From the NCBI GenBank assembly GCA_937946835.1, contig CALFAV010000029.1, positions 62,001 to 126,000 on the forward strand: a stretch of DNA of 64,000 bases, given 5' to 3'. Positions 38,691-63,700 of the stretch are shown here, piece by piece. A model generated the notes under the pieces. It had not been told where the DNA came from. It made no database searches and was given only the letters and a program-made list of their open reading frames with translations. This stretch comes from an uncultured Verrucomicrobiae bacterium. Lineage in GTDB: Bacteria > Verrucomicrobiota > Verrucomicrobiia > Limisphaerales > J093. The number at the start of each line of letters is the position of its first letter. The stretch's first letter is position 1. Made by a program: the position numbers and the translations under genes.

Positions 38691-39506
38691 TCAGGCCACC
38701 GGCAGCGGGGGCGTTTCCGTGACCACCAACGGGGCGGGGGCCGGGGCGCTCGCCGGGACGGGCGCGGCTTCCGGCTGGGCCGGCGGCGCTTCCTCCTTCG
38801 ATGGCCGGGCACGGCGGGCCTCGTATTCGGCCCGCGCCTGGCCGATGGTCTGCACCACCACGCTCAGGATCAGGCGCACCGACCGGATGGCGTCATCGTT
38901 GCCCGCGATGGGGTAATCCACCAGATTCGGGTCGCAGTTGGTGTCCACGATGGCCACGATGGGGATTTTGAGGCGGCGGGCCTCGGCCACGGCGTTTTTC
39001 TCGCGTTTGATGTCCACGACGAACAGGGCGGCCGGCAACTTGTCCATCGTGCGGATGCCCTCGAGGTTTTTGAGCAGCCGGGCCATTTCCCGCCGGAGGA
39101 CGGATTGCTCCTGTTTGACGTAATTGTTGATGGAGCCGTCGGCCTCCATTTTTTCGATTTCCTTCAGGCGGGCCAGGGAACGGCGGAGCGTTTTCATGTT
39201 GGTGAGCGTGCCGCCCAGCCAGCGCTGGATCACATAAGGTTGGCCGCAACTCAGGGCCGCTTCCTTGACCGCTTCCTGCGCCTGTTTCTTGGTGCCGACA
39301 AACAGAACCTGCCCGCCGTCGGCCGCCGCCCCCCGGAGAAAGGTGCATGCCGCCTCGAGTTGGGCGAGCGTCTTGCTCAGGTCAATGATGTGGATCCCGT
39401 TGCGCGCGTCGAAGATGAACGGCTTCATGGCCGGATTCCACCGGCGCGTTTGATGGCCGAAATGAACGCCCGCCTCGAGCAACTCTTTGATGCCGATATT
39501 GATCAC
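38691..39506 (-). CDS. rpsB: 30S ribosomal protein S2
   Basis: A 271-residue small-subunit protein. The N-terminal [22 protein letters not shown], the [13 protein letters not shown] loop, [15 protein letters not shown] and the C-terminal [26 protein letters not shown] all match S2. The last 45 residues are an Ala/Pro-rich extension beyond the conserved core. The start codon is GTG (39504-39506), preceded by AAGGGA with suitable spacing, one of the clearer ribosome sites in the window. The leader contains a hairpin and a TTG/CAA microsatellite. S2 often represses its own operon through its leader; this is not demonstrated here. Confidence 0.97.
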
Positions 39507-40762
39507 AAGTTCCCTTGGTTGTCAGCGCGCCCGTTGTCGGGCCCGCCATCCCGCGGAACACGGGATTTTTGTTGTTGTTGTTGTGGCCGGTGCCTCCACC
39601 CGGAGGACACACTCTTGAAGGCCGTTGCGCGCCCGCTTTGAGCGAAACGCGAACCGGCAGGCTAGCAAAGCGGGGGCGCCCCGCAACGGCAAATTGGGCT
39701 GCCCGAAGGCCCGGAGCGGGGCCGGGGTGCGGGGCGGTGTCCTCAGGTCCCCGAGACCTCCCGGCCCGACGCATTGACCCCGCGACCGTCCGGGCGCTCG
39801 GGCGGCGACTTGGCGGAATCCGGCGATTGGTCTGGCTGCGGTGGTCGCGATCAAAAAAACCGCACGCGGTCGGTCTCGCGGGAGGCCAAGGGTCCGTGCG
39901 GGTCCGGGCCGCGTGGCGGCAACGCCTGTCCGTCCGGCGCGGGGTGCAGGCCAAAGGCGGTGTGGATGAACGTCGCGTTTTCCGCGGCAGGAACGATGCG
40001 GGTTTCCGGACCGCCACCGGCCACCGGACGCGCCCGCCGGGCCCTCCCGCAGCTTTGGACTTGCTCGGGGCGGGAGGCAGCGCGGGTTTTTCAGAGCGTG
40101 GCAGGCAGGTCTGAGCAGGCCCAATGCTCCCTGCACACCGACCCCATTCCCCGCCGCAGCCACGGCCGGGCGTTGCTTCTCGGTCGAATGCGCCCAGCCA
40201 AGCCGCGGGGTTACGCACAGCGATAGGTACCTTCGTCGTGAATCACCGGATTACTTGCAAGCTCACGTTACCCAGATCAGCAACAGCTCACAGAGGATTG
40301 TTTTCCCCGGTGAACCCTTCCGACCTTGAGGCTTCCGGCCACGGGGGGATGAGGGCTGCAGCGAATTCTAAGTGCCGGCCGCAAAGCAGCCTCACGTCTG
40401 CACCCGTTCGGTACCTCCGGTTCGATCGTCTGACACTGTTCAAGCCCCCTTTTCCCCGACGTGTTGAGCCATTCGAAATTTTCCTACAGGCGCTTCCGAA
40501 CTCCTTGGCGGAGCCCGCGATTTGCCGCGGTTGCCGGGAGTCTGCACAAACCCGGTACAGTTAGACCCTCCGTGCACGTTCCACGCGCCTCGACTTCTCC
40601 GGAGGCAGTGGGGAATTTCCGCCGCACCGACACGACACGATGGCATCGGCATCGTCAGCGCACGGGAGTGGACGAGGAATTTGCTGTGGTCGAGTTTGGA
40701 ACTCGGTTTGTCTCCGCCGGTCATCTGCCGGCAATGGTCGTCGGGGGGGCGCCGAAACTTCC
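39507..40762. other. Long non-coding stretch upstream of rpsB
   Basis: No convincing gene is seen in 1256 bases. The left 700 bases are GC-rich. From about 40200 to 40560 the sequence is noticeably less GC-rich and short frames lack family character. I looked for tRNA, RNase P, SRP and tmRNA signatures and recognised none. It forms one flank of the four-gene cluster at 40763-46682. Confidence 0.55.
39548..39585. promoter_or_regulatory. Hairpin plus (GTT)n microsatellite in the rpsB leader region
   Basis: ATCCCG (39548-39553) pairs with CGGGAT (39561-39566); on the plus strand a T-run and GTT repeats follow. In rpsB orientation it is a (CAA)n tract followed by a hairpin about 40 bases before the GTG. 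It may be part of an S2 leader, or a plus-strand terminator. Confidence 0.3.
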
Positions 40763-42400
40763 TCAGGGCGCCTTTTCCTGGCGGGTGACGATGGGCACGT
40801 AGCCCACCTCCAGACCCTTCGGCGGCGTGACAATCAGGGCCGGATCAAGGGTCACCAACTTTCCGCGGGTCGGTGGCGGCATGTAGTCCCGGTCAATCGG
40901 CCACGCTGCGTGGAGCTTCTCGACGAACGCTTGCAGCTTCGCTTTCTTTCCCGCGCTCCAGTGGTATTGCTGGAAGGAGGGTTGGTCCACGAAGCGATAC
41001 CAGTAGTAGGTCACGACCGAGCCGTCCACGAGCTTGACCTTGAACGGGCCGCTCACCGGCCCGGGCCGGGTCCAGGCCGGGCTGTTGGGGGAGGTGTAGG
41101 GCTGACCTGGCGGGGCCAAACTGAACTCCTGCGCGTGCAGTTGGGTTTCCGCCGGCACCTGCGCCGGGGGCACGGCGATGCGCTCGTCGCCGACGTGCTT
41201 GTAGTATTGCGGGAACAGGCCGGCTGGCGCGAGGTCGTTGGTGACCCATTGCAGGCCCCAGACGTTGCCCTCAAAGATGCGCGTGTCGAAGGCGCGCTCC
41301 ACCCCCACGATCCGCTTACCGGCCTGGTCGTAGCGGGTGGTGCGCGTGTTGAGCTTGGGTTTGAAAGCGCCTTTCTCGTCGAAGCGCCCGGAGCAGGCCG
41401 GGCCGCCGTCGCGCCAGGCCTTGAAGGCGTCGTAAAGCGCGGCCTTTGAGTAATAAGTCACGTCTTGCACCAGATACGCCCGGCCTTCGGCGTCCACGGG
41501 CCACTGAAGCTTCGGCAGCTTCGTGTAGGTGTTGCCTTGAGCATCTTTTGAGTCGAAGCGCGGGACGGTGTTGATCTCCATGGCGCCGCCGCCCATGATG
41601 CCGGGGCGCGCGTCGAGGCCGCGTCCGTAAAGGAAGGGGTAGTTGAACAGCTTGCCGATCTTGCTCCAGGTCTCCGGGATGTAGTAGGCGATGGGGCCTT
41701 TGAAGTTGGCCGCGCTCAGGAAGCAGGTCCAGCTCTGGTCGCCGGTGGGCGGGTCCTCCGTGGTCGGGTCGGTGAACGGCAGTGCCATCCAGGTGTAACC
41801 GAGGAACTCGCCGTTGGGATTGCCCTGGAACGGCAGCGCGTCGGGCGGAATGAGCAGCCGATTGCTGAGCTGCGCGATGCCCAGCCGGTCATCCGGCAGC
41901 GCCTCGTCGCTGTAGAAGAACGACCAGCCCGGCGACCCGATCTCGTAATCGTAGCACTGCGGCGTCCCGTTCATGCTGAACTTGGGCGGGCCGTAACGGA
42001 AGTGGTTGCCCGCCCAGTAGCCCAGACCGCCTTCGATGGTCTGAAAGACGCTGCTCCAGGTTGGTCCCCGCTCCTTCCACCGGCGGGCCAGGGTGCTCTC
42101 CGGACACAGTGGCATGTCCTTGTTGTCGGAATTGTCCGGCTGAATCCACGAGCTGGGCAGGCCGATCTGGAAGTTGGCCAGCGGCTGATCCACCAGCGGC
42201 CAGACCGCCGCGTAAAAGCCCATGCCGGCGGTGTAGCCGCCGTCCGCGGGCAACTGCTCGTGGCCGAACCCGATGTAACCGTGCAGACCCTGCGAATGCG
42301 ACGTGACGAGGCCGGCCTTGTCCGCTGCGGTGACGGTCCCGACGCTGATGACCGTTGCGGCAAACAGGCAGCCGGACCTCCCGGTTGTTTTGCATTTCAT
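40763..42400 (-). CDS. Secreted protein of unknown family, copy B (paralog of the adjacent upstream gene)
   Basis: A 545-residue protein with an N-terminal signal-like segment (SGCLFAATVISVGTVTAAD). I do not recognise the family. Blocks shared with the neighbouring 541-residue protein show homology along the whole length: YAAVWPLVDQPL, EGGLGYWAGNHF, LGIAQLSNRLLIPPD, PTGDQSWTCFLSAANFKGPIAYY, GSVVTYYWYRF, DRDYMPPP and PALIVTPPKGLEVGYVPI. The abundance of Trp, Tyr and Phe and the lack of membrane helices suggest a soluble carbohydrate-handling or binding protein outside the cytoplasm. AGGAGA lies 11 bases before the ATG. It is the last gene of the cluster, 20 bases after copy A. Confidence 0.75.
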   Translation of the reverse strand: MKCKTTGRSGCLFAATVISVGTVTAADKAGLVTSHSQGLHGYIGFGHEQLPADGGYTAGMGFYAAVWPLVDQPLANFQIGLPSSWIQPDNSDNKDMPLCPESTLARRWKERGPTWSSVFQTIEGGLGYWAGNHFRYGPPKFSMNGTPQCYDYEIGSPGWSFFYSDEALPDDRLGIAQLSNRLLIPPDALPFQGNPNGEFLGYTWMALPFTDPTTEDPPTGDQSWTCFLSAANFKGPIAYYIPETWSKIGKLFNYPFLYGRGLDARPGIMGGGAMEINTVPRFDSKDAQGNTYTKLPKLQWPVDAEGRAYLVQDVTYYSKAALYDAFKAWRDGGPACSGRFDEKGAFKPKLNTRTTRYDQAGKRIVGVERAFDTRIFEGNVWGLQWVTNDLAPAGLFPQYYKHVGDERIAVPPAQVPAETQLHAQEFSLAPPGQPYTSPNSPAWTRPGPVSGPFKVKLVDGSVVTYYWYRFVDQPSFQQYHWSAGKKAKLQAFVEKLHAAWPIDRDYMPPPTRGKLVTLDPALIVTPPKGLEVGYVPIVTRQEKAP

Positions 42401-42420
42401 GGTGGTGCTTTCTCCTGACG

Positions 42421-44046
42421 TTATGGACGACTCCTCGGAGGGGCCAATTCCTGGCGGGTCGCAATGGGGACATAACCCACTTCCAAGCCTTGTGGCGGAG
42501 TCACGATCAGCGCGGGATCAAGCTCCGCCAATTGCCCGATCGCTGGCGGCGGGAGATAGTCGCGGTCCTTGGTCCACGCGCGGTGCAGCTTTTCCACGCG
42601 CCGCTGGACCACTTCGCGCTCCTCGGGCGTGAGATCGGCGTTGAGCATCGCGGGTTGGTCGGCGAACCGATACCAGTAATAGGTCACCACGCTGCCGTCG
42701 CCGAGACGCGCTTGAAACGGGCCGGCGGCGGGACCGGGTTTCTTCCAACAGCTCGCGGGATCGTCGGGTGTGGTGCGGGGTTCCGGCAGCGCTTCCTTCG
42801 GGGTTTTAAACCGGTATTGGGTGAGGCCGAGTTCCGCCGGCACGTCCTGGACAGCAACGACCGACCAGACCTGCTTTTCGCCTTGTTTGCCGAGGCGAAA
42901 GAATTCCGGCAGCGTCACCAGCGAGCCGCTCTTGCGCGTGAGTTCTTCGTTCCAGCAAAAGCCCAGCGTCAACGGGTCCGGCGTGATGGGCGTGGCAAAG
43001 GATTTCCACGCCAGTGACGCCGCTTCCTTCCGGGGAACGCCCGGCGGGAAGAAGCTCCAGCTTGAGCCGCCCGCAGCCTTGAATCGCTGCGTGGTGGAGG
43101 CGGTGAGTTTGATGAGCCCATCGGCGGGCGGCCCCCCCGCGAACCAGCGCGCCACGTCGTCCCACAGCGCAGCTCTGGTATAGACGGTGTGGCGATGCAG
43201 CAGAGCGGAGTGTCCATCCGGCATGACCGGAAACGAAGTCCGCGCCATCCGGGCAAACGAGGTTCCATCCTTGGCCGTGCCGAAGATGGCCGGGATGTGC
43301 TGGGTCTCCATCTGGATGGCCTTGTTCGGGTCGGACGGAGCCGAGTCGAGCAGCTTGCCCGCCCACTGCGGGTTCTTCACCAGGGCGCGCGACCAGAAGT
43401 AGGGAGTGAAGAACGCAACCGGACCTTTGAAGTTGGCCGTGTTCAAAAAGAGCGTCCAGCATTGGTTGCCGGTGGGAACATTGGCCCCGGCCGTGGTCGG
43501 CTTGGGATCGGTGAGCGGCAGAGGCAAATAGCCGTAGCCGAACAGTTCCCCGCAGGTGCCTTGTTTCAGATTTAAGCCGTCCAGCGGGAACAAGAGCCAG
43601 GGACTGAGCTGGGCGACGCCGTAGAGGCCACGCTCCTCTTCCCAGGTGCCCGCGCCGTAGCCCGGACCGTTGGCGATGACCGAAAAGTTCGGCCCCACGC
43701 CGCCCATGATGAACTTCGGCGTGGTCGTCGGGAAATGGGTGTCGCGCCACCAGCCCAGTCCGCCCTCGATGTCGGTGTAACATTCTTCCTTCGGTTTCTG
43801 GCCGGGTTCATCGAGTGGATGCATCCACGTGCTGAGCAGCCCGGTTTGAAACTCGTGCCCGGGGTAGTGGTCCACCAGCGGCCAGGCGGCGGCATAGAAC
43901 GAGAAGCCGGCGTTGTATTCATTGGGCATCCGTTCGCCGTCGAACAACAGGTAGCCGAACATTTCGCCACGTTTGACTTCGGTGGGGGAGTCGGGTGCCG
44001 CGATGGCACCTTGGGCGGCTAGAAACAGGAAGGCCAGATGGTTCAT
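42421..44046 (-). CDS. Secreted protein of unknown family, copy A
   Basis: A 541-residue homolog of the downstream gene, with signal peptide MNHLAFLFLAAQGAIAAPD. Conserved blocks occur in the same order (FYAAAWPLVDHY, EGGLGWWRDTHF, YGVAQLSPWLLFPLD, PTGNQCWTLFLNTANFKGPVAFF, SVVTYYWYRFADQP, DRDYLPPP, ALIVTPPQGLEVGYVPIATRQE). Divergence is large enough that the duplication is old. A clear AAGGAG sits five bases before the ATG, stronger than for most genes in the window. It lies 24 bases after the esterase gene. The function is unknown; context (esterase, exported dehydrogenase) suggests a role with acylated carbohydrate. Confidence 0.78.
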   Translation of the reverse strand: MNHLAFLFLAAQGAIAAPDSPTEVKRGEMFGYLLFDGERMPNEYNAGFSFYAAAWPLVDHYPGHEFQTGLLSTWMHPLDEPGQKPKEECYTDIEGGLGWWRDTHFPTTTPKFIMGGVGPNFSVIANGPGYGAGTWEEERGLYGVAQLSPWLLFPLDGLNLKQGTCGELFGYGYLPLPLTDPKPTTAGANVPTGNQCWTLFLNTANFKGPVAFFTPYFWSRALVKNPQWAGKLLDSAPSDPNKAIQMETQHIPAIFGTAKDGTSFARMARTSFPVMPDGHSALLHRHTVYTRAALWDDVARWFAGGPPADGLIKLTASTTQRFKAAGGSSWSFFPPGVPRKEAASLAWKSFATPITPDPLTLGFCWNEELTRKSGSLVTLPEFFRLGKQGEKQVWSVVAVQDVPAELGLTQYRFKTPKEALPEPRTTPDDPASCWKKPGPAAGPFQARLGDGSVVTYYWYRFADQPAMLNADLTPEEREVVQRRVEKLHRAWTKDRDYLPPPAIGQLAELDPALIVTPPQGLEVGYVPIATRQELAPPRSRP

Positions 44047-44070
44047 GTGTTCTCCTTGGGGAAATGGGCA

Positions 44071-45342
44071 TCAGCGGTCCCGCTGGTCTTTCGCCATTTG
44101 AAGCAGGGCTTCGGCGAAGGCTTGGCCCATCAGCGCAAAGGTCTTCGCGCAGCCGAGGTAGTGGTAACCGGCATTGGAGGCGCCGCGTTTCCAAAGGGCC
44201 GCTTCCGCGGGCGTGATAAGGTCGGCCTCGAACTTCCTGATCCACTCCCGCTTTTGTTCCTCGGTCATCTGGCCGTCGGCGTTGGCGTGGTCCTTGTGTT
44301 TCGAGTCCAGGAACCAGCGCATCTGCCGCACCCGCTCGTGCTTCTTGTCAATGGCCCCGAGTTCTTCCGACCAGAACGGCGCGGTTTCCACCGCGACCAC
44401 GTTGCCCGCAAACTCCGGCAACGCCGCCGGCGCCGCCATCGCCTTGCGAAACTCGAGGGTCTCCGCGTCCGGCGTCGCGCCGCCCACGCCCAGCACGCCG
44501 ATGACGAACGGCATCTTCGGCGCCTGGAGGTCCCGTCGCACATCGCGGATGAACTGCGCGAGCAGTTCCGAGTAGGCATCGAAGCGATTGGGCCGGCCAC
44601 GCTCGGGATAGACGTGGCCATCCACCATGTCATTCCAACCTTGTAACCAGACAAAGCCGGCCAGTTCATAGCCCTGCGCGGGATCGTAATCCGGGACCAC
44701 ACGCCGGGGATTGGCCAGCACCTTTTTCACGTGCTCCATCATCAACCGGTAATACACCCCGGTGGCCCCGGCCTTTTCCTCCTTCCACTGCGCAAAATCC
44801 TTCGGAATGCCATGCCCGGTCTGCTTGGGGTAATTCTCCCGCTGAAACGAACTCAATTGATACGGCCCGGCGCCGGGTGGCCGGAAATCCGTGTGCAGGC
44901 TTTTGCCGCCCCAGGCAGCCTTGATGATGAGCACCGGCCCGGCGAGCGCGGCGTCGAGCGTAAGGCCGAAGGTGAACTCGGGGCCGATTTTGTCCCCGGG
45001 CTGGGTGGGATCCAAACCCCACAATGAGCCGTAGCCGGCCGTCAGTTTGCCCGTGAGTTCAAAGTTTTTCCCCCCGTCGCCGGTGAGGTACGAAATCCAC
45101 ACGTGGTCGCAGACGCGCGGCTGGCCGTCCTCGCCGCGCATCTGCCGGAGCAAGGGCGCGGTGGCCGGGTCGTCGCCGAGGTAGTCGAAGGTTCGGATAT
45201 TCGCCGGACCTTCCATGTTCGACTGGCCTGCGAGGATGAAGACTTTAAGCGGTTTGGCGTGAGCCTGGCTGGTGGTCGCCAACATCAGGCTGGCAGCCAC
45301 TGCGGCCCACGTGCGCCTGGTCATCCCTCGTTTGACCTTCAT
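44071..45342 (-). CDS. SGNH-type (sialate O-acetylesterase-like, SASA) secreted carbohydrate esterase
   Basis: A 423-residue protein. A signal peptide follows a basic start (MTRRTWAAVAASLMLATTSQAHA). The nucleophile Ser is in the SGNH block I motif VFILAGQSNMEG at about residue 40. WLQGWNDMVDG in the middle corresponds to the 'W-x-QGE/W-x-D' block of the SASA domain, and AGYHYLGCAKTFALMGQAFAEAL at the end carries the His of the catalytic dyad. It probably removes acetyl or similar groups from extracellular glycans. Its ATG overlaps the stop of the Gfo/Idh gene by four bases, and AGGA precedes it. The upstream extension in the same frame antisense-overlaps the dehydrogenase and is not coding. 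Confidence 0.85.
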   Translation of the reverse strand: MKVKRGMTRRTWAAVAASLMLATTSQAHAKPLKVFILAGQSNMEGPANIRTFDYLGDDPATAPLLRQMRGEDGQPRVCDHVWISYLTGDGGKNFELTGKLTAGYGSLWGLDPTQPGDKIGPEFTFGLTLDAALAGPVLIIKAAWGGKSLHTDFRPPGAGPYQLSSFQRENYPKQTGHGIPKDFAQWKEEKAGATGVYYRLMMEHVKKVLANPRRVVPDYDPAQGYELAGFVWLQGWNDMVDGHVYPERGRPNRFDAYSELLAQFIRDVRRDLQAPKMPFVIGVLGVGGATPDAETLEFRKAMAAPAALPEFAGNVVAVETAPFWSEELGAIDKKHERVRQMRWFLDSKHKDHANADGQMTEEQKREWIRKFEADLITPAEAALWKRGASNAGYHYLGCAKTFALMGQAFAEALLQMAKDQRDR

Positions 45343-46682
45343 GCTGTCCTGCCGGTTTGTTCCTCGGCCCAAACAATTTCTTCCCGTGCCGCGTCCCAGC
45401 GCACCATGCGGCCTTCCTGCTGGGCTTTCAGCGACATGAGGAACGTGGCCGTTTCGATGAACGCTTCGTCCGTGGAGCACTTGGGCGTGCCGCGGGTGCG
45501 GATGCAATTGAGCCAATCCACGAGGTGATTGGGCTGCGGAGGTGTTTTGCCACGCTCGTAGCCCTTGGGCAGATTCGGGTTCCGGTTGTGCGGGGCCGGG
45601 ATGATTTCGAACGTGGTGACGTCGTGGGCGATGGCGTCGAAGCGCAGCGTGGCATCGCGCCCGCAAATCGTCACCGGCTGGCTGTCGGTGGCGATCATGC
45701 TGCCCTCGAAGGTCACGGTGCGACCCAGTTTCTCGAATTGGTAAGTGGCGATCCAGGTGTCGGGCACCTCGCGGTCGTCGCGCAGCAGTGCAATCTGCCC
45801 GGCGCTCACGCAGGTGTCGGGAATGCCGTGGCCCAGCAAGTATTGGACAAAATCCATCTCGTGCGACAGCAGGTCGCCGGCGTAGCCCGTGCCGTAGGCG
45901 TAGTAACAACGCCAGTGCCAGAAGTGACGTTCGTTCCATGGGATTTTCGGCGCCGGGCCGAGCCAACGGTCCCAATCCAGCTCCCTGCGTACCGGGTCCG
46001 GGTCGGGCCGTTCCCATTGATCGTAGTACCCATACCAGCGCCAGTTGGGCCGATCCGGCGTGGTGGGCTTGAAGCGGCCGGTGCGCACCAGCGTGATCGG
46101 CCCCAGGATGCCCTGGGCAATCAGTTCCCTGGCCTGCAGGGCGCAGGTGGCCTGACGGGCCTGGTGGCCGAGCTGGAAAACCACCTTGCTCCGCTTGAGC
46201 GCGTCGCGCATCCGCTTGGCCTCGTCGAGGGTCCGGGCGAACCCTTTTTCGCAGTAGATGTCTTTGCCCGCCTGCACGGCGTCCAGCACCATTTGGCAAT
46301 GCCAGTGATCGGGCGTGGCGATGACCACGGCGTCCACTTTCGGGTCGGCCAGCAGGTCCCGGTAATCCACGTAGGCCTTCACGTCGGGGTTGCGGCTGCG
46401 CTCGATGCCCTTGTGGCGGTGCGGCCCGTAGACATCGCACACGGCTACCACCTTGACGTTCGGTGCGGCCACCACGGCGTTCAGCAAGTCCCCGCCCCGG
46501 GTGCCCAGGCCGATGCAGCCCACCCCGATGGTTTTGGCCGACGGTTCCGCGGCGAGAACGGTGGGCCCAAGGGCGGAAGCGACGGTCAGGGCGGAGGCGG
46601 TTTGACCGGCTGTCCGCAGGAACTGCCGCCGGTTGATGCCCGCGGAATTTTCCTGATGAGTGACCTGGTTCAGGGGTTTCAT
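45339..46682 (-). CDS. Tat-exported Gfo/Idh/MocA family oxidoreductase (first gene of cluster)
   Basis: A 447-residue protein with the twin-arginine signal INRRQFLRTAGQTASALTV and an AAEPSAKT cleavage area. The Rossmann motif is GCIGLGTRGGDLL. The catalytic Lys region reads YCEKGFARTL (EKG rather than EKP). The downstream LGHQARQ, the YAYGTGYAGDLLSHEMDFVQYLLG segment and EGSMIATDSQPVTICG are typical of exported sugar dehydrogenase-like members. It heads the four-gene unit and is coupled to the esterase gene by a four-base overlap. The reaction (perhaps oxidation or epimerisation of a glycan-derived sugar) is inferred only from family and context. Confidence 0.88.
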   Translation of the reverse strand: MKPLNQVTHQENSAGINRRQFLRTAGQTASALTVASALGPTVLAAEPSAKTIGVGCIGLGTRGGDLLNAVVAAPNVKVVAVCDVYGPHRHKGIERSRNPDVKAYVDYRDLLADPKVDAVVIATPDHWHCQMVLDAVQAGKDIYCEKGFARTLDEAKRMRDALKRSKVVFQLGHQARQATCALQARELIAQGILGPITLVRTGRFKPTTPDRPNWRWYGYYDQWERPDPDPVRRELDWDRWLGPAPKIPWNERHFWHWRCYYAYGTGYAGDLLSHEMDFVQYLLGHGIPDTCVSAGQIALLRDDREVPDTWIATYQFEKLGRTVTFEGSMIATDSQPVTICGRDATLRFDAIAHDVTTFEIIPAPHNRNPNLPKGYERGKTPPQPNHLVDWLNCIRTRGTPKCSTDEAFIETATFLMSLKAQQEGRMVRWDAAREEIVWAEEQTGRTA

Positions 46683-46758
46683 GGTCGGGTTTGTCGGCGG
46701 GTGTTCCGACCTTGAGGTTCGTTGGAGATGGTTCGATGGATGGCCGTACGGGTTTGAG

Positions 46759-46786
46759 ATTGCACGGGTCGCAAACGCTTGGTCAA
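46759..46786 (-). promoter_or_regulatory. Promoter candidate for the four-gene cluster
   Basis: On the minus strand TTGACC (46786-46781) and TGCAAT (46764-46759) are separated by 16 bases and lie 77 bases upstream of the dehydrogenase ATG. Each box matches four or five of six sigma-70 consensus bases. Confidence 0.3.
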
Positions 46787-47352
46787 GGCGAGGACGGCTG
46801 TGGATGGAAACAAGCTCTGCGGGCAGCGACTTTTACCGCCGCGAACCGCGGCTCGCTGGCCGGGGATGCGGCGGGGCACCAAACCGTCCAGCCCGCCGCA
46901 GCGTAGTACGCGCAGCTTCTGATCGGCAATCCCTTTGGCGGTTTCGAGCCCCTCTTTGTTGGCACAACCACAGCGTTCTCAGCCGGCGCCATGTGCGCGC
47001 GGGCGGGCATCGCTGGCGGCCATAACTTGCCTTCCTGTTGGAGGTTGCAGTGGGTCCGGACCGCGGAAAACCCTGCTCCAACAAACGCGGCAAGCTGGAA
47101 AGAAATTGCCGGGGGCACCGGTTTGGGGGGACGGTGAATATTTCAGTTCGCCTTCCGAAGGCTTAGCGGCCTTGCTCTACGGAGGCGGCGCATGGTGGTC
47201 ACCGAGCCGTCACCGACTGCAGCGCCTGGGTTTTGCCGCCCTTGGCGGCCATCGCAGCCCCGAGTGCGACGCAACCTGCTTTGCCCCGGTTCTTCGAACC
47301 AGCGGCCAGAGGCAACAAACCCCTGCGAGCCGGGCTTGCGGGGGGTGGAAAT
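46787..47352. other. Non-coding stretch between the cluster and tRNA-fMet
   Basis: No convincing gene is seen. Base composition is mixed, and short frames lack family character. With 39507-40762 it brackets the four-gene cluster. Confidence 0.5.
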
Positions 47353-47429
<77 letters not shown>

Positions 47430-47512
47430 ATTCAGGACGGCCTTAATTTGGGCCAACGGCGGGCGGCTGGCAAGCGGTTTTCCACTGCCCGGCCACGTTG
47501 TCCCCCAGGGGA

Positions 47513-48244
47513 TTAATCGCGGTTCTCGAAGGAGCGGGCGAGCAGGATCAGCCGCACCAGTTCCAGCACCGCCGTCACCAGCGCCGCCACGTAGGTGAGC
47601 GCTGCCGCGCCCAGCACCCGGCTGACCGCCGGCGCTTCCGCCTGCGAAACAATCCCCGTCCGCACCAACGCGGCCCGGGCCCGCCGGCTGGCGTCGAATT
47701 CCACCGGCAGGGTGATCAGTTGAAACAGCGTGACCACCGCGTAAGCCCCCACCGCGTAAGGCAGCAGCGCGCCGAAAATCTGGGGGCTCAAAATCCCCAT
47801 CATGGTCAGGAGGAACCCCACGCCCAGGATCAGAAAGGCCGCCTTGCTGGCGAAGTTGGTGGCCGGGACCATGAACATCCGCAGTTGCAGGGGCAGATAG
47901 GCCGCTTGGTGCTGCAGAGCGTGACCCGCTTCGTGGGCGGCCACACCCACGGCCGCCAGAGAACGCCCGTAATAATTGGCTTCGGACAGGTACAACGCCC
48001 GCCGGAGCGGATCGTAATGGTCGGTTAATTGCCCCGGTACGGGTTTGACCGGCACTTCCCGAAGGCCGGCGCGGTCCAAGATTTCCCGGGCGGCCTCGGC
48101 CCCGGTCAACCCGCCGGTGGCCGGAACCTGGGAGTACCGGCCGTAGGTGGACATCAGCTTCATCTGCGCCCAGATGCCCAGCAACAACCCGGGCAAAATC
48201 AGGATGTCCCACGCGAAGAAAAACCCAAACGCAAACATGGTCAT
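47513..48244 (-). CDS. Membrane zinc metallopeptidase (Zn_peptidase_2/YugP-like)
   Basis: A 243-residue membrane protein. The N-terminal helix (FAFGFFFAWDILILPGLLLGIWAQ) is followed by a cytoplasmic or periplasmic domain with the zinc motif HEAGH in GVAAHEAGHALQHQ at about residue 105. Then come two or three hydrophobic helices, the segment LPVEFDASRRA (acidic ligand region) and a last helix at the C-terminus. The family is common in bacteria but its substrates are unknown; membrane protein turnover is usually suggested. It is alone between tRNA-fMet and the M24-like gene. Confidence 0.9.
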   Translation of the reverse strand: MTMFAFGFFFAWDILILPGLLLGIWAQMKLMSTYGRYSQVPATGGLTGAEAAREILDRAGLREVPVKPVPGQLTDHYDPLRRALYLSEANYYGRSLAAVGVAAHEAGHALQHQAAYLPLQLRMFMVPATNFASKAAFLILGVGFLLTMMGILSPQIFGALLPYAVGAYAVVTLFQLITLPVEFDASRRARAALVRTGIVSQAEAPAVSRVLGAAALTYVAALVTAVLELVRLILLARSFENRD

Positions 48245-49683: not shown

Positions 49684-52600
49684 CTATTCGTAGCTCAACA
49701 CCAGGTTGGCGCCCTGGAGCTGAACGGTCTTGATCCGATGGGCCTGTCCGGCACGCAGGCGGTAAAAGCGGGTCGGCCCGCTGATCGGCACGGTGATGGT
49801 TTTGGCGCCGGTGTTGATCACGGCAGTGTCGTCGTCAGCGAACGGCTCGCCCAGCCGCGCGGTGGACTGCAATTTGATCTCGGGTTCGGCGGCGACCTCC
49901 ACGTAGGCTTTAATGGCCCGGGGTGAGGTGGCGTCGTTGATCAAGGTGCGTTCGCCGGTGGCGAGGTCCACCGAGAACCATTCGGCGTAGGCGTTGCCGC
50001 CGCGCTCGTACCAGACCATGCGGAACGGATAAAAGCCGGCCTGCGTGACCACGAACTCGAAGGTCTCGTTGGCCGGACCGCCGTTGTGGAAGCCGAGCAC
50101 GGGGGTTTTGTCGCTGAGGCGGGCACCGGAGGAGATTTTGTAACCGTCATCGGTCACCACGCCGAAGCGATGGGCGCCGGCCGGCAGTTCGAGCCAGGCG
50201 GTGATTTCCACGGCGAAATCGTCGGTACCTTCCTGGGATTCGGCCAGGCCGGGCACCAGGCTCTCCGGGTAGCCGTTGTCGGCGGTGAAGTAGCCGGAGG
50301 GCCGGTCGTCCTGGGCCATGTTCACGAGCTGCTCGACCACGTTGGTCTCGAAGGCCCTGGGGATGGTCGAGTTGGGGGCCAACTGGTTCTCGGCGCGGTC
50401 CAGGCTGTTTTCCAGGTTCGAGAAGGCCGGCGCCTGCACCATGCGCACGTTGAAGCCGCGCGCCAGGCCGGGGCCGGAGCGCCGGTTGGCCGGGTCCAGG
50501 GCCAGGTAGTTGAGGGTGAAGCTCCAGGACTGGGCAATGTCCACACCCTCGCTGTCCTTGAACGACAACCGCGCGGTGTGGGTCTGGCCCGGCGGCGGCA
50601 GGGGGCTGATGGCGTAACGGACATCGGCTCCGGTGGCCGTGGGGGTGACGGTGGCGGGCACCGCCACGCCGTTCAGCTCCAACTGGATGGTCGCGGTGTT
50701 GACCGCGGTGTCGCGGTTCTGAATCGAGGCGATGATCACCGGGGCGATGGTTTCGACCACCGCGTCCGGGGCCGGGTTCAGGTTGGCGATGACCGGCCGC
50801 TGCGGGCCGACCTCCGGCACGGGCAGGAAGACCAGGTAGTTGAGGTACCGGTTGCCGGTGTTGTCATCGGGGGTCACGTGCCGCAGGCGCAGGGTCTTCT
50901 TGCCGGACAGCCGCAGCACGATCTTGTTCTGGCCGGTGCCATCGGTCAGGGGCACGTTGCGGAAGGTGAAGCCGCTGGTGCGTCCCAGGAAACTGCCCAG
51001 CACGCGGGTGGTCTGGTCCGGCTGCGCCGGGTCGCTGGTGACTTCCTCGAGCACGCTTTCGGCCTGCGCGAAGTTCACAATGGCCTCGCGCAGGTACACC
51101 TCGTAGGAGCCGGCGGTGAAGTCGCGGGTGAAGTTCTGCCACTCGTTCGCGGCGATGTCGCCCACGTCGTAGTCGTACACGCCGTTGTCCGGGTTGAAGG
51201 CCGGCCGGGCCAGGTCCAGCGAACGCTGCATCCGCACCGGGTCCATCGTGCGGTACATCGTGTTGGCGCCGTTCGGGGTGGTGCGGGTGTCGTGGAAATC
51301 CACCCCCGCGATGCCGGCGCGGTCGGTGTAGGAGTTGTTGGCCTGGCCCCAGCCTTCCGGGGTGCGGACCGGGTTGTTGAAGTAGGAACCGCCGTCGAAG
51401 TTGTAGTCCTCGACCTCGAGCACGCGGGCCGCGGCGGTGAAGGTGTCGAAGTAGATGGTCTGGGCGGTGGTCACACCGTCCGCATCCGTGACCTCCAGGC
51501 GGGCGATGTAGTTCTGGTCCGCGGTCAGGCCGCCGAGGCTGGCGGTGCGATTGGCCCCGGAGCCGCCCAGCACCAGGCCGTTGGCGGTGGTGTACGTGAC
51601 CCCGTTGAGGACCACCCGAATGGCGGCATCCTCCAGGGCCTTGTCGTCCGTGGCGCGGAAGGTGATTTGGGTCGCGGCTGGCAGGAAATTCGCGCCGTCG
51701 CGCGGGCTGATTTCACTCAGGATGGGCGGTTGGTTGGCCGCTTCGGGGGGGGCGCAGGCGATCAGGTTGTCGTAGATGACCTGGTAGCCGGCCGGGTCCT
51801 GGCCGCCGTCGGCGTACAGGTACAGGACCACGTGCCCCGGGCCAACGAACGGCGCCGGAGGTGAGTCGGTCCCGTCGTCGAGCACGTCCGCGCCGGCGGT
51901 GTCCACAAAAGTGCGGTCGAAGATGATGGCGTTGTTGTCGTCCCGGTCATACACCCGCCCGCGAATGGTCACCTCGCCGTTGCGCACGGTCAGGGCCAGG
52001 GACAGCGTGATGTTCTCGTTTTTGAGGGCGGTGGCCTGGTTGAGGAAGTACTTGTTGATGCCCTTGGTGATGAGGATGTCGGTGGTGGACTTGGCCAGGC
52101 CGTAGCCCGCCAGGGTGTTCGGCCCGGTGGCCTGGGGAATCCACGCCAATACGGCAAAGGAGTCCGGCCCCTGGCCGCTGACCAGGTCCACGCTAAACTC
52201 GTGGGTGGTGCCTTCTTCGAGGGTGAAGGTCTTGGACTTCTTGGTGCTGGAGACGAAGTAGGCTTGTCCCAGCCGGGGTAGATTGAAGGTGAACACCCCG
52301 TTGGCCTGCTGGCCGCCGGGCAGGGGCTGGTTGGCCGGATTGGCATCCTCCCAGCCCGTGCGCTGGGCGGCGTTGAAGTCGTCCAGCACCTGCTCGTCGC
52401 AGATGAACACTTCAAGGTTGTCGTACACCACCTGGTACCCGGCCGGGTCCTGGCCGCCGTCGGCGTACAGGTACAAGGTCGGGTGCCCGAGTCCCAAGAA
52501 CGGGGCCGGGGGCGAATCCGTGCCGTCATCGAGCACGTCGGCGCCCGGTGTGTCCACAAATGTGCGCTCGAAGATCACGGCGTTGTGGTCATCCTTGTCG

Positions 52601-53127
52601 AGCACCTGGCCGGTGATGTGCACGCTGCCGCCCTTGACCTGGAGCCGGAGCACCAGCGTGATGTTCTCGTTTTTGAGAGCGGTGGCGGAGTTGAGGAAGT
52701 ACTTGTTGATGCCCTTGGTGATGAGGATGTCGCTGGTGGACTTGGCCAGGCCGTAGCCCGCCAGGGAGTTGGGCCCGGTGGCTTGGGGAATCCACGCCAG
52801 TACGGCGAAGGAGTCCGGTCCCTGGCCATTGACCAGGTCCACCCGCAACTCGATGGTCCGGCCCTCCTTCAACTCGAGGGTTTCGGACTTCTTGGTGCTG
52901 GAGACAAAGTAGGCTTGTCCCAGCCGGGGCAGATTGAAGGTGAACACCCCGTTGGCCTGCTGGCCACCGGGCAGGGGCAGGTTGGCCGGATTGGCGTCTT
53001 CCCAGCCCGCGCGCTGGGCCGCGTTGAAGTCGTCAATCACCCGGGCGTGGCCCGCCCACAAACCCGCCGTGCAAACCAGCGCCGCCGAGGTCTTGGCCCA
53101 GAAGGGGAGTCGAGGGAATTTTTTCAT
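49684..53127 (-). CDS. Large secreted multidomain protein with an internal 217-residue tandem duplication
   Basis: An 1147-residue extracellular protein. The signal peptide KTSAALVCTAGLWAGHA is followed by two nearly identical modules beginning (V/I)DDFNAAQR-x-GWEDANPAN and ending YDNL, each resembling a LamG/concanavalin-like or CBM beta-sandwich. Next is an Ig-like domain (NQPPILSEISPRDGANFLPAATQITF), then a segment RVLEVEDYNFDGGSYF…YEVYLREAIV that looks like a carbohydrate-binding module, a second Ig-like domain (PVIANLNPAPDAVVETIAP) and a PA14-like part (ITAWLELPAGAHRFGVVTDDGYKI). The end is a short beta-rich tail. No catalytic residues are evident, so it is likely an adhesin or glycan-binding protein. 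It diverges from a Gfo/Idh gene. Confidence 0.8.
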   Translation of the reverse strand: MKKFPRLPFWAKTSAALVCTAGLWAGHARVIDDFNAAQRAGWEDANPANLPLPGGQQANGVFTFNLPRLGQAYFVSSTKKSETLELKEGRTIELRVDLVNGQGPDSFAVLAWIPQATGPNSLAGYGLAKSTSDILITKGINKYFLNSATALKNENITLVLRLQVKGGSVHITGQVLDKDDHNAVIFERTFVDTPGADVLDDGTDSPPAPFLGLGHPTLYLYADGGQDPAGYQVVYDNLEVFICDEQVLDDFNAAQRTGWEDANPANQPLPGGQQANGVFTFNLPRLGQAYFVSSTKKSKTFTLEEGTTHEFSVDLVSGQGPDSFAVLAWIPQATGPNTLAGYGLAKSTTDILITKGINKYFLNQATALKNENITLSLALTVRNGEVTIRGRVYDRDDNNAIIFDRTFVDTAGADVLDDGTDSPPAPFVGPGHVVLYLYADGGQDPAGYQVIYDNLIACAPPEAANQPPILSEISPRDGANFLPAATQITFRATDDKALEDAAIRVVLNGVTYTTANGLVLGGSGANRTASLGGLTADQNYIARLEVTDADGVTTAQTIYFDTFTAAARVLEVEDYNFDGGSYFNNPVRTPEGWGQANNSYTDRAGIAGVDFHDTRTTPNGANTMYRTMDPVRMQRSLDLARPAFNPDNGVYDYDVGDIAANEWQNFTRDFTAGSYEVYLREAIVNFAQAESVLEEVTSDPAQPDQTTRVLGSFLGRTSGFTFRNVPLTDGTGQNKIVLRLSGKKTLRLRHVTPDDNTGNRYLNYLVFLPVPEVGPQRPVIANLNPAPDAVVETIAPVIIASIQNRDTAVNTATIQLELNGVAVPATVTPTATGADVRYAISPLPPPGQTHTARLSFKDSEGVDIAQSWSFTLNYLALDPANRRSGPGLARGFNVRMVQAPAFSNLENSLDRAENQLAPNSTIPRAFETNVVEQLVNMAQDDRPSGYFTADNGYPESLVPGLAESQEGTDDFAVEITAWLELPAGAHRFGVVTDDGYKISSGARLSDKTPVLGFHNGGPANETFEFVVTQAGFYPFRMVWYERGGNAYAEWFSVDLATGERTLINDATSPRAIKAYVEVAAEPEIKLQSTARLGEPFADDDTAVINTGAKTITVPISGPTRFYRLRAGQAHRIKTVQLQGANLVLSYE
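51739..53040 (-). repeat. In-frame tandem duplication of 651 bp inside the large secreted protein gene
   Basis: Unit 1 spans about 53040-52390 and unit 2 about 52389-51739. The DNA is close to identical over long runs (for example around 52260-52380 versus 52910-53030), with scattered mostly synonymous changes, indicating a recent event. Confidence 0.85.
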
Positions 53128-53381
53128 GGCTTGAACGTGGCTGGGGCCGTCTCCGCCCCGTGTCACCCCAGGCACCCGCCTTGGCTTCCAGCGAGCGGAA
53201 ACGGCACCAACGCCACCAGGAACATGGTTCATTTGGATTGGGTGCCATGCTGCTCGGCAAAGGCTTGAGGCGTCAACCGAATTCCGCGCGGGCACACCGC
53301 CGGACGTCTGCCGGAGGTCCCCGGGCCGCCGCCCTGCACCGGCCGGTTGCCAAGCGGCGGCGGCGGGGGTTCACTCCCGGC

Positions 53382-57766: not shown

Positions 57767-60700
57767 TCAGGGCAGCAGCACGACCCGGTAGAACTGGGTG
57801 GCGGCCCCACCGTGGCCGGTGTCCGTGAAGACGACCGTGGTGCCCGTGGCCGTGGTCTGGCCCACGGTGCGCCAGCTTGCGCTGCCCAGCACGGTCGTGG
57901 CCTCGAGGCGGTAGGTGCGTCCCGGTTGGGCGCTCCAGCGCAACGTGACCTGGCCGGCCGGCCCCAGCTCCAGTCCCGTCAGACTCGGGGCCGGCGGCGG
58001 GCTGGCTTGATTGGCCGCGCCCGGCGTCGGCACCGCCAGCACCTGCGGGGCGGTGTCCTCCCGGCGCGGGGCCGGGTAGCCGAAGGCCTGGTCGGCGGCC
58101 AGCGCCGGATATTCGAGGAAGTCCACCACCGCGGGCTGGGCGCCCTGGAGCCGGGAGAGCACCACCACGCCCCCGGCGGGATTGAGGCGGAAGAAGGTGT
58201 GCCACTCGCCGGCGGTGGTCTGGCCGGCCTGGGCATCGGCCCAGATCAGCTTGAGTTCGCCGCCGGCCAGGGCCGCGCCGGCCGGGAACGGCCATTGGGC
58301 GAGGTTGTCAAAGTTGTCCGCGAGGTACCAGCCGCTCAGCGGCACGGGCGCGGCGCCGAAGTTGGCCAGCTCGATCCACGGATCGCGCTCACCGGCGTTG
58401 TCGCGCGGGCCGGTTTGGTTCACGGCCTGGACCTCGTTGATCCAGACCGGCGGGAACGGCTCGAGGTTGGCGCGCACCGAGTTGACAAAGCCGGGCGTGT
58501 AGCCCGCGCGGGGGGCCTCGATCACCTCGACACTCACGCCCATGACGACGTCCGTACTGTTCGGGTTGGTCTGATGCACCTCCACCGCCAGCACGTTGGC
58601 GCCCTCGCGCAGGTTGTTCACCGGCACCGTGAAGGGGCCTTCGTAGGCCGCGTCCCCGACGGTGCGGGAGGCGGCGTCGCCGCGGTTGGGAATGACGCCC
58701 GCGGGCATGCCCAGCCAGAAGATGGGGGTGCCGTTGAGGTAAAACACCGCGCCGTCGTCAATGACCGGGTTGAGCACCAGTTGGGCGCCCTCGGGGTTGC
58801 CGGTGAAGGTGAAGGTGTGGCGGAAGAGGTAGCTCATTGGCCCCAGTGTGAGCAGGGTGTTTTTGGGCGCGGGCAGCGCGGCGCTTTCGACGTACAAGAG
58901 CGCCCGGCCACTCGGCCAGGCGGTGTCGTTGTAGCCGAGATTGGTCCAGCCGGGCGCGGGATCTTCGGCGGCCTGCCAGTAGCGCCAGGGGGCGTCAATG
59001 GGGATGAGGTTGCGCGGGGCGTTGGTGCCGGAAGCGCCCACCACCGCGGCCCAGTTGGCCACACGCGCGTTGTCCTGGCGCGGGTCAATCAACTGGAGCG
59101 AGGCCCGGCCGGTCAGGGCTGCCGGCGGCCAGGGCGGGCCGGCCCGGAAAGCGACGCGGTCCACCAGCGTGTCCGGGTCCGGGGTGGCGCTCCGGTACAG
59201 GGCGATGACGCCGCCCTCCGGGGCCAGTTCGTTCACGTAGTCGCCGACCACGTTGGTGCGAGCGCCGTAGGTGGTGGTGAACACGGTCCGGTTGCGGGCG
59301 ACCACCAGATAGCCGCCCGGCTCCAGGCGCGTGCCCGTCGGGAAGAGGTACCGGGTGCCGGTCAACAGCCAACCCGAAAGGTCCCAGGTGATGTTGGTGG
59401 ACCAGTTGTGCAACTCGACGTACTCGGCGCCGGCGGCGGGCGGGCGATGCATGATTTCGTTGATGACGATGCGCGGGACGCCGCGCACCACCACCGTGAA
59501 GCGGCGTTCGGCACTGAGCGGGTTGCGCAGGTCATCGTCGGTCACCCGCACGGTGATCGTGTTGGTGCTCGGGCCGAATTCGGCGGGCACCGCCCAGGTG
59601 AACCAGCCCTCGAGCGGATCAATGCCCGTGCCCTCGGGCGCGCCGGGGCCGAGGCTGAAGGTGAGTCGTTGCGGCGGCCGGTCGGCGTCCGTGGCGATGG
59701 CCCGGAATTGCAGCAGCTCGCCCTCGCGCACCTCGCGGTCGGCCAGTGGCGCCAGCTCCGGCGCCTGGTTGCGCTCGAGCACCTCGACGGCGAAAACACG
59801 GGTGGCACTCAACTGCGGCGGCAGCGTCTCGGTGGCGCGCACCTCGAAGATGTGGGTGCCGGGGCCGTCGTCCTCGGTGGTCGGCCAGGTGATCAGGCCG
59901 GAGGTGGGATTGATCGAGGCGCCGGCCGGGGCGCGCACCAGGCTGAAGGTGATGGGTGAGTTGGCCGCGTCGGGGTCGCGGGCCTGGACCTGGTAGGTGA
60001 AGGTGTCCATCTCCTCGACCGTTTGCGGGGCGATGAAGGGCATCTCGGGCGGGTTGTTCACCTCGTTGACCGTCACCCGGAAACTCCGGGTGTGGCTCCG
60101 CGGCGGGGTGCCGTCGTCGGTCACCCGCACGGTGACCTGATACACGCCGGGGCCATGCTCCTCGGCCGGCGTCCACACCACCGCCGGCCCTTCGGGGTCA
60201 ATGGCCATCCCCGCGGGGGCGCCGGGTTCGAGGCCGAAGGCCAGGGCCTGTGGCGGCAGGTCGGGGTCGCTGGCACTGAGCGGCACCACGAGCAGCGCGC
60301 CTTCGTCCACGACCTGATCGGGAATGGCCGCCAGCGTGGGCGGCAGGTTCACTTCAGTGACCCGGACGGTCAGCGTGCGGGTGGCTTGGCGCGGCGGGGT
60401 GCCGTTGTCGGAGACGCGGATCGTGAAGGTGTACTCGCCCGGGCCCTGAGCCTCGGTGGGCGTCCAGGTGAGCACGCCGGTGCCCGGCTCGAGGCTGACG
60501 CCCGCCGGGGCGTCGCCGCCCAGGCTGAAGGTCAGTTGCTGGCCGGCATCGGGGTCGGAGGCGGTAACGGTCAGGCGCAACAGGGTCAGTTCGGCGACCT
60601 GCTGGTCCGGGATGGGGTCCAGCACCGGGGGACGGTTGCCGCCGGCCATGAAGTTGGGTTCGCCCGGGGTGGGCCGGTCCAGGGTCAGCAGCGGCAGGGG

Positions 60701-63700
60701 CGCGCCGTCGGGAAAACGGCCCTGACTGACATCGTTGGTTTGGGCGCCGAAGCTGAAGCCATCCACCAACGAGCCGTCGGGCGCAAAGAGGCCCAGGTCT
60801 TCACCGGCGAGGCTGAGCTTGAAGTTGACGTGCAGCGGGCCGCCGGGTTGGGTCTGGTTGCCCTCCTCGTCCGCCCAGACCAGCAGGAAACCACCGGGCG
60901 GGATGATCGTGCCGGGCGGGATGGTGTATTTGGTGGGGTTGGCCAGGTTGTCGGTGAGCGTGTATCCGGACAGGTCGGCCGGCGCGGCCCCGGCATTGTA
61001 CAGCTCGAACCAATCGTCGAAGTCGCCGTCGGCCGGGTCGGGAATGGTGGTGTTGCCGGCCATGAACTCGTTGATGAACACCTGAATGGCGGGCATGGCC
61101 GGGTTGTTGGGGCCGCCGGGGGTGACGTGGTGGAACGGCCGGCGGCGGCGCGGCTCGCCGTCCGGGTACGAGCCGTAGCTGCGGTCGGCCGCCAACTGCG
61201 CGTAGTCCAGGTAATCCATCACCGCCGGCTGGGACGGACTGCCCTGCAGGCGGACCAGCGCCACTGAGCCGGTGTCCGGGGCGAGCCGGAAGTTGGTGTG
61301 GGGCGCGCCGGGAACGGATTGCGCCGGCTCGGCGTCCGCCCAAATCACCAGGAACTGGCGGGGGCCGATGACAGTACCGGCGGGGAACTGCCAACGGGTC
61401 AGGTTGGTGTAGGTGTCGGTCAGGTAAAACGCCGAGAGGTCCACCGCGGTGTCGCCGGCGTTGTACAGCTCGATCCACGGCTCGCGGCGGCCGCCGGCGT
61501 CGGTCGGGCCGGTGAGGTTGTGGGGCTGGACCTCGTTGATCCAGACCGGCGGGAAGGGGGGCAGGGTTTGCCGCACGGCATTGGCGCGGCCGGGGGTGAC
61601 GCGGTTGACATCATTGGTGGCCGTGGCCGCCCAGTTGCCCACGCGCCAGGCGCCCCGGGCCGGGTCCACGAGTTGGAGCGAGGGGCCGCGGCCGTCGGCC
61701 TCGAGCGGCCAGGGCAGGCGGTCGTCATACCGCACGTCGCTGATGACCGTGTCCCGGGCGGGGGTGTCGCCGGGCCGGATCAACCGGAGGTGTTCCCCGC
61801 CGTTGTCGAGCGTGCCGGGGTACTGGTCAAAGACCGGGATGGTCTGGCCGTAGAGGTTGGCGAAGGCCTGGCGGTCCTGGGCCAGGACCAGGAAGCCGCC
61901 GGCCGGCAGGATGGCGCCGGGCGGGAAGGTGTAGCCCACCCCGTCCAGCCGCCAGCCCGAGAGGTCGAAGGGCGTGGTGGTGGAGCGGTTGTGCAGCTCG
62001 AGGAAGTCACCGCCGGGCTGGTGGGCGTTGTACTGGATTTCGTTGATCACGACGAACTCCTCGGGGCGCTCCAGTTCGCCGGTGTAGGTGACGGTGATGG
62101 TGCGGCTGGCGCCGGGCACGGGGTTGCCGCGGCGGTCCCTGCCCACCAGCGTGAGTACGTTGGTGCGCTGGGTCAGCGGCACGGTCAGGCGGAAGGTGCG
62201 CTGGTCGGTCCAGGTGGCCGGGTAGGGGACGCCGTTGACCTCGAGGGTGGCCACGGCAAACGGCGCGGTGCCGGACAGGAGGGTGGTGGGCGTGCTCGAG
62301 GTGTAGTCCTGGCCGCCGTTGGTGGTGATGGCAAAGCTGGCGGCGTCATTGAGGCGAATCTGGTTGGAAATGTAGTTGCGCCGGGAATTGATGTAGCTGG
62401 TGATGCTGCTCGGCGAGGACAGGCCGGTGATGCCGTTTTTCAGGAGCACGTCGCGGCGGGCGTCAATCTGGGGCTGGAAGCGCTCGGGCCGCAGTGGCCC
62501 GTTGATCGCGTCCAGGTACGCGCGCCAGAGCATCCGGCGGAAGGTGGGGTTGTCATACATGCGGTTGACCACCGGGTCCTGGCCGCCCCAGAGCGCGGTG
62601 GTGGCGCCGTCGCCCAGGCCGAAGGTGAAGTCAATGTCCCAGCGCATGAGCACCGAGCGCAGGCCGGGTTGTTTGTACAGGAACATGTTCTGGCCGACGC
62701 GGTAGCTCCACATGTCCCAGTCGCCCATGATCCAGCCGCAACTGAAGGTGCGCATCCACTGGTCCATGTCGGCAAGGGTCAGCAGGCCGTCCACGTACCC
62801 GGCGCCGGTGGTGTTGGCGGCGTTCACCAGGTCGAAGATGGTGGTGTAATTGGTGGCCGTGCCGTCGTTGGAGCGGCGCTGGAAGGTCCAGCGGTAGCGG
62901 GCCGGCTTGAGCGTGGTACCGCTCAAGAAGCGCTCGAGCGTGGCGCTGACGGCGTTGAACTGGCTGTTGTCGTCCTGGAATTCGAACCACATGGCGACCT
63001 TGTACAGGTCGCCCGGGCCGCCCTGCGGGAACCAGCGTTCGGCGTAGTCGTGGTCGGGTTGCTCGAGGTCCTCCATGACGTTGTAGGGCATGTTGCCGTT
63101 GCGATACAGCCGCAGGTAGTGGGCGTGCAGGTAGGGCACGCCCTGTTGCTGGTGCAACCAGGCGGCCAGTTGGCTGCGGATGGCGGTGGGTTCGTTGCCG
63201 GCGTTGCCGGTGGAGGCCAACACCCGTTCGTCGGCGCCCAGCAACCGGTCGTCGGCCGGGCACTCGACGGCGAAGTCGCCCCGGCCCCCGTGCCAGGGGC
63301 TGGCCTTGTCGCGGAAGCCCACGTTGTAGATCACCCGGTGGTGGTTATAGACCAGCGTGGCGTCGCGGTAGGTGTTGTCCAGGCCGGCAGTGCGGGATTG
63401 CTCGGTCGCCTGGGTGCTCCACAGGTGGTAGTGGGCGAAGGTGCCAAACGGCACGGGGTCGCCCCAGCGGATCAGGCACTCCTGGCCCGCCGCGGCCACC
63501 GTGAACTCCCCGGAAGGAAAGACCGTGGTGACCGGGGACGAGGCCGCATCGGTGGCCTGGATGCGGAAGGCCACCAACACCCCCGCCGCCCGGCCGCTGA
63601 TCTGGGCGGACCAGAGGCCGTCCCCGGCCACGGCGTCACCCCCGGTGCCGTCATCGCGCATGACCACCGCGGTGTAGGTAGCCGTGGGGTCCTGCCGGTA

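Follow-up and report, generated by a model that had tools for sequence, protein, structure and literature searches.

A secreted protein family with a predicted glutamic-peptidase-like fold, associated with a SASA carbohydrate esterase in a four-gene unit of a Verrucomicrobiae bacterium

The window, that is, the whole 64,000-nucleotide stretch of DNA analysed here, carries on its minus strand a unit of four genes (40763-46682) in the order Gfo/Idh/MocA, SASA, PA and PB. The first gene (45339..46682) encodes a Gfo/Idh/MocA-family protein of 447 residues (PF01408), and the second (44071..45342, with its ATG at 45342) a SASA esterase of 423 residues (PF03629). They are followed by the genes of two secreted paralogues, PA (42421..44046, 541 residues), which presents a predicted neprosin-like glutamic-peptidase fold, and PB (40763..42400, 545 residues). 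The unit is real, co-directional and exported, as an earlier note made from the letters of this DNA had proposed. The SASA and Gfo/Idh genes overlap by 4 bases, and SASA is separated from PA by 24 bases and PA from PB by 20. Inspected by eye, the Gfo/Idh/MocA protein shows a twin-arginine export motif (NRRQFLRT), and SASA, PA and PB start with hydrophobic, signal-peptide-like stretches. The bracketing non-coding DNA of about 1250 and 670 bases was also found, with 1256 bases to rpsB on one side and, on the other, 670 to a tRNA-Met(cat) gene and 830 to the next protein gene. This tRNA gene (47353..47429, minus strand; ARAGORN and Rfam) forms the upstream border, lies on the same strand as the unit and points its 3' end toward it. 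On the other hand, the sigma-70-like promoter that had been read upstream was not recovered, since a simple scan of 39400-47600 gave no hit where 1.0 was expected in shuffles. Concerning the stronger Shine-Dalgarno sites, the claim holds for PA (AAGGAG) and PB (AGGAG), where they are clear, but not for SASA, where the site is weak, nor for Gfo/Idh, where there is none.

Three other minus-strand genes of the window encode large proteins. The gene at 49684-53295 encodes 1203 residues, including a PA14 domain and two repeats, each of about 190 residues, that are highly similar; that at 57767-63985 encodes 2072 residues with a CotH kinase domain, five lamin-tail domains and Ig/cadherin-like repeats; and that at 6112-9423 encodes 1103 residues in which sigma-70 regions 2 and 4 are joined to carboxypeptidase-regulatory-like domains.

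The first two proteins of the unit are ordinary members of their families, both above the curated cut-offs, and the novelty is their association with PA and PB. The Gfo/Idh/MocA protein matches PF01408, the NAD-binding domain, with 75 bits (cut-off 24), and its nearest NCBIfam model is the BT_2158 glycoside 3-dehydrogenase (140 bits, far under the cut-off of 750). The possibility of a GH109-type glycosidase was dropped, as its matches give no support to it. The SASA protein reaches 59.2 bits against PF03629 (cut-off 24.8), contains the GQSNM block and is predicted to be a secreted carbohydrate O-acetylesterase. SASA matches occur at two places only in the 3.46-Mb genome that the window belongs to.

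PA and PB are homologous, with 37% identity in an alignment of 542 columns (E 9e-94), and have the blocks GLEVGYVPI, ANFKGP and YYWYRF in common, just as had been noticed in their translations. The statement that they belong to no recognised family was also borne out: family scans, phmmer and a profile search gave nothing significant for either of them in Pfam, NCBIfam or the PDB sequences, and 56 members of the family gave nothing significant in Pfam and NCBIfam. The PA/PB family is therefore absent from the protein-family libraries searched. The neprosin profile PF03080 matched none of the 56 members at E up to 10, nor PA and PB at E up to 1, and it found no match in 289 genomes of the phylum, where the control genomes were equally silent, so that this last negative carries no weight. 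Moreover, a viral structure library gave no significant match, and no relative was found on plasmids.

Regarding its spread, one scan of species-representative genomes revealed 289 stretches that encode PA relatives. The 80 inspected all come from Verrucomicrobiota, Planctomycetota or uncultured bacteria, with Chthoniobacter flavus and Brevifollis gellanilyticus among the cultured carriers. Across the window's phylum, a single-sequence search matched 16 of 388 evenly sampled genomes; a profile confirmed 14 of these 16, left the weak single-sequence matches L016 and L017 unconfirmed and retrieved no more distant members in the 388 genomes. The PA domain is large (510-540 residues) and keeps about 60% identity or more across phyla. 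PB forms a tight subfamily, in which identity to the window's PB is 75-87%, except for one outlier at 40%. Of the 14 genomes of the window's own family that were searched, its own genome counted, 10 carry PB at 81% or more.

The co-occurrence of these genes was followed in other genomes, where the loci come from related genomes and their counts are not independent events. SASA lies upstream of PA, separate or fused, in about 30 of the 80 loci; a dozen or so of the 80 are too short to judge. In about 20 of the 80, SASA, or two tandem SASA-like domains, is found in the open frame of PA itself, and in about nine more a separate SASA gene is directly upstream. The SASA types joined to PA differ in their similarity to that of the window (about 70%, about 40%, and tandem forms). 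Since the fusion is found in many relatives, the PA family and a sugar-deacetylating enzyme probably work together outside the cell, on polymers or proteins coated with sugars. In the remaining loci PA stands without SASA, in many cases beside housekeeping genes such as aspS, a DEAD-box helicase gene or a photolyase-related gene. The tandem SASA-SASA-PA polypeptides (L036, L043, L051 and L054) carry GHRNME instead of GQSNM in the second SASA-like copy, which therefore seems to have lost its catalytic serine.

The complete order Gfo/Idh-SASA-PA-PB is also present in another genus of the family (L126). A Gfo/Idh relative of 73-85% identity opens this order in L126 and is directly followed by PB in four genomes (L105, L131, L133 and L135). 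PB adjoins PA in L027/L125, L044/L103 and L102, and stands before SASA-PA in L032, while in L024 a remnant of a Gfo/Idh gene of about 100 residues precedes SASA-PA. The association that the earlier note had suggested looking for was thus found in other genomes. The idea that Gfo/Idh regularly accompanies PA was rejected, because most PA genes have no close Gfo/Idh relative beside them and such a relative is found mainly with PB.

The earlier note had also considered the unit a module acquired from elsewhere, on account of its bracketing non-coding DNA, stronger Shine-Dalgarno sites and lower GC. The unit does have a lower GC (64.3%) than the mean of 68.7% in about 150 kb of the genome, and none of 122 sampled 5.9-kb windows is as low. 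However, the adjacent rpsB, tsf and zinc peptidase genes are at 64.8-65.3%, so the difference with the immediate neighbours does not stand and GC gives no sign of a foreign origin of the unit. A recent acquisition as an island at the tRNA-Met gene would fit this low GC, the patchy spread over 16 of 388 genomes and the tRNA 3' end facing the unit, where a perfect 14-base direct repeat, TTGCGGGGGGTGGA (47336-47369), spans the 3' end of the gene and the following bases on the unit side. It would also fit the identity of the window's PB, which stays flat at 82% within its own genus and 82-84% in several other classes, whereas the identity of ribosomal S2 decreases from 76-78% to 52-56% in the corresponding genomes; movement between lineages is for this reason plausible. 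Against the island stand the GC shared with the flanks, the presence of PB in most genomes searched of the window's family, the lack of a distal copy of the repeat within the window and the fact that no integrase was noticed among the scanned neighbours. Furthermore, the four-fold degenerate sites of PB are near saturation (0.48-0.62 identical, with 0.43 expected from composition in one pair), which argues against a recent transfer, and we regard the island as very improbable. The data fit an old exchange between lineages together with strong purifying selection, and strong constraint alone may also be the cause of the flat PB identity. It should be mentioned that in a genome related to that of the window only at class level (G293, L107:8913-13203) PB is also near tsf and rpsB, in a different relative orientation, which could reflect a shared insertion site or chance.

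Structure prediction was run for PA of the two paralogues, with an alignment of 56 members as AlphaFold input, and gave a model with a mean pLDDT of 90.3 and a pTM of 0.90 (model numbering is one lower than the residue numbers used here, where Met = 1). In Foldseek against the PDB, the top four matches of the model were neprosin and scytalido-glutamic peptidase, at E-values that are weak (5e-3 to 8e-3). VIA-align placed the mature forms of neprosin first (Z 14.1-14.4, 237-241 residues), the best row having Z 14.4 and rmsd 3.9 over 238 of 256 residues. The HC7 di-glutamate mucinase came second (Z 10.2-10.3, 211-212 of 340-343 residues), followed by the Bacillus protease CPAVM1 (Z 8.7), YncM (7.9), the best beta-glucanase (7.5) and scytalido-glutamic peptidase (6.8-7.3), with beta-glucanases, GH16 and alginate lyases at Z 5-7.5. 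In this program, a Z under 8 can reflect merely a common arrangement, and therefore the fold argument depends on the rows of neprosin and HC7. A glutamic-peptidase beta-sandwich is thus well supported as the predicted fold of PA.

These known systems share several features with PA and also differ from it. Neprosin (PF03080) is a glutamic prolyl endopeptidase of Nepenthes, active at acid pH, with bacterial relatives. Besides the similar predicted fold, PA presents a Tyr, a Trp and, within a motif of the IE[AG]G type, a Glu at putatively matching places, and PB keeps H-x-Y and T-[IV]-E-x-G. In contrast to neprosin, PA lacks a PF03080 match and the N-terminal all-beta pro-domain of the neprosin zymogen; its fold begins about 25 residues from the N-terminus, right after the signal-peptide-like stretch. 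It also has larger loops and about 135 extra, well-conserved C-terminal residues outside the neprosin match, and it adjoins, or is fused to, a carbohydrate esterase. The HC7 mucinase (8pmu, 8pn3; PMC13003899) may be similar in fold, with 6% identity to PA, and its glutamate-based cleavage of a glycosylated protein is, by analogy, the mode that may be proposed for PA. HC7 carries a CBM5 module, whereas PA is joined to the esterase. The eqolisins (family G1, scytalido-glutamic peptidase) have the broad beta-sandwich in common with PA (Z about 7) and use a catalytic Gln and Glu pair, while PA has, on a weak alignment, an invariant Glu at the proposed assisting position.

In neprosin, the catalytic residues are E188 and E297; Y136 and H134 hold E297, T186, Q173 and Y214 hold E188, and W175 and Q173 stabilise the intermediate (PMC9343461). 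Exactly two Glu residues are invariant across the 56 PA/PB members, E94 (IEGG motif, codon 43765..43767, minus strand) and E247 (QMETQ, codon 43306..43308, minus strand) of PA, which are proposed as the equivalents of E188 and E297, respectively. For E94, the best-scoring path in an hhalign comparison of the PA profile with three neprosin sequences pairs Y136, W175 and E188 with the invariant Tyr32, Trp74 and Glu94. Its total score is insignificant (20 of 150 shuffles were as high), and the coincidence of the three residues appeared in none of 150 shuffles keeping the active-site columns. Y32 and W74 are hence candidate helper residues, and the structural alignment, which starts with model residue 27 on neprosin 132, would bring Tyr32 onto Y136 if ungapped. 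A profile comparison of PA with neprosin was not significant (P 0.16), and hhalign did not match the half of PA that holds the second Glu. The assignment of E247 is proposed because the strand-proline-helix-strand order is common to the PA model and the neprosin sequence, so that it comes from this order and not from sequence similarity; a 231-residue fragment model targeting this Glu reached a pLDDT of 45.

PB presents H40-G-Y42 and Q-T-I-E123-G-G, close to H134-Q-Y136 and N-T-I-E188-A-G of neprosin. A pattern of such kind, picked after the fact, occurred in 73 of 200,000 PB shuffles. E123 and E275, the latter being the second Glu, are invariant in 10 PB sequences. The hhalign comparison of PB with neprosin was not significant, and a PB-only profile gave a different path in which the mapping was not recovered.

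Taken together, PA and PB could constitute a new family of secreted, glutamic-peptidase-like proteins that has a glycan O-deacetylase as its partner, a reading to which we give, mechanism included, a probability of about one in two. Both proteins would be secreted hydrolases built on the beta-sandwich of neprosin, the HC7 mucinase and the eqolisins, in which the glutamate pair (E94 and E247 in PA, E123 and E275 in PB) would probably activate water for the cleavage of a peptide or glycopeptide backbone. The SASA esterase, which is often fused to PA, would remove the O-acetyl groups carried by the substrate's glycans and give PA access, and PB and the Tat-exported Gfo/Idh/MocA enzyme may act on that secreted substrate or on its products. 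Catalysis, the catalytic pair, a glycoprotein as substrate and the order of these steps are what we infer here, and the substrate of the PA family and the deacetylase would probably be acetylated glycoproteins. The most specific form of this proposal is more tentative: new di-glutamate glycopeptidases secreted by Verrucomicrobiota and Planctomycetota, in which the SASA-PA fusion deacetylates the glycans and then cuts the carrier protein, with PB and Gfo/Idh as a second arm.

Several considerations weigh against a peptidase: sequence by itself does not show homology between PA and neprosin, the SASA and Gfo/Idh partners are carbohydrate enzymes, and the neprosin match leaves out the conserved C-terminal part of PA. 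We know of no peptidase activity in the PA/PB family, and the broad fold of PA also serves lectins, glucanases and lyases. Hence, the carbohydrate cluster of the earlier note keeps part of its basis, since SASA and Gfo/Idh point to glycans, while PA has a predicted fold indicative of glutamic peptidases.

The main rival, which we consider somewhat unlikely, is a carbohydrate-cleaving role, with PA and PB as glycoside hydrolases or lyases of concanavalin-like fold acting on an acetylated polysaccharide; Gfo/Idh would make a 3-keto sugar and PB or PA would cleave it. In the 3-keto glycan pathway, DUF1080-type proteins cleave the 3-keto product. The pairing of Gfo/Idh with PB, the glycoside 3-dehydrogenase as nearest NCBIfam model, the carbohydrate esterase and the glucanase, GH16 and lyase rows of the structural search agree with this role, but the glutamic peptidases reach about twice their Z and are covered over nearly all their domain, and most PA genes have no close Gfo/Idh relative alongside. 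PF06439 (DUF1080, 3-keto-disaccharide hydrolase) had no significant match, although one of the 56 members touches it at E 0.066. The lectin-type beta-sandwich and an esterase fusion that resembles an enzyme with a binding module could also suggest that PA and PB are lectin-like modules without a catalytic role, which would bind glycans and thereby direct the esterase. The many PA genes that stand alone beside housekeeping genes, the two invariant Glu residues and the size and conservation of the domain across phyla make this an unlikely role.

The glutamic peptidases form a small catalytic class that has received little study, and, if the peptidase reading is true, the PA family with its 289 stretches would widen it. 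The natural SASA-PA fusions provide a concrete and testable functional link, and the family would then give a hint of how, in water and soil, acetylated glycoproteins or polymers are attacked by its carriers.
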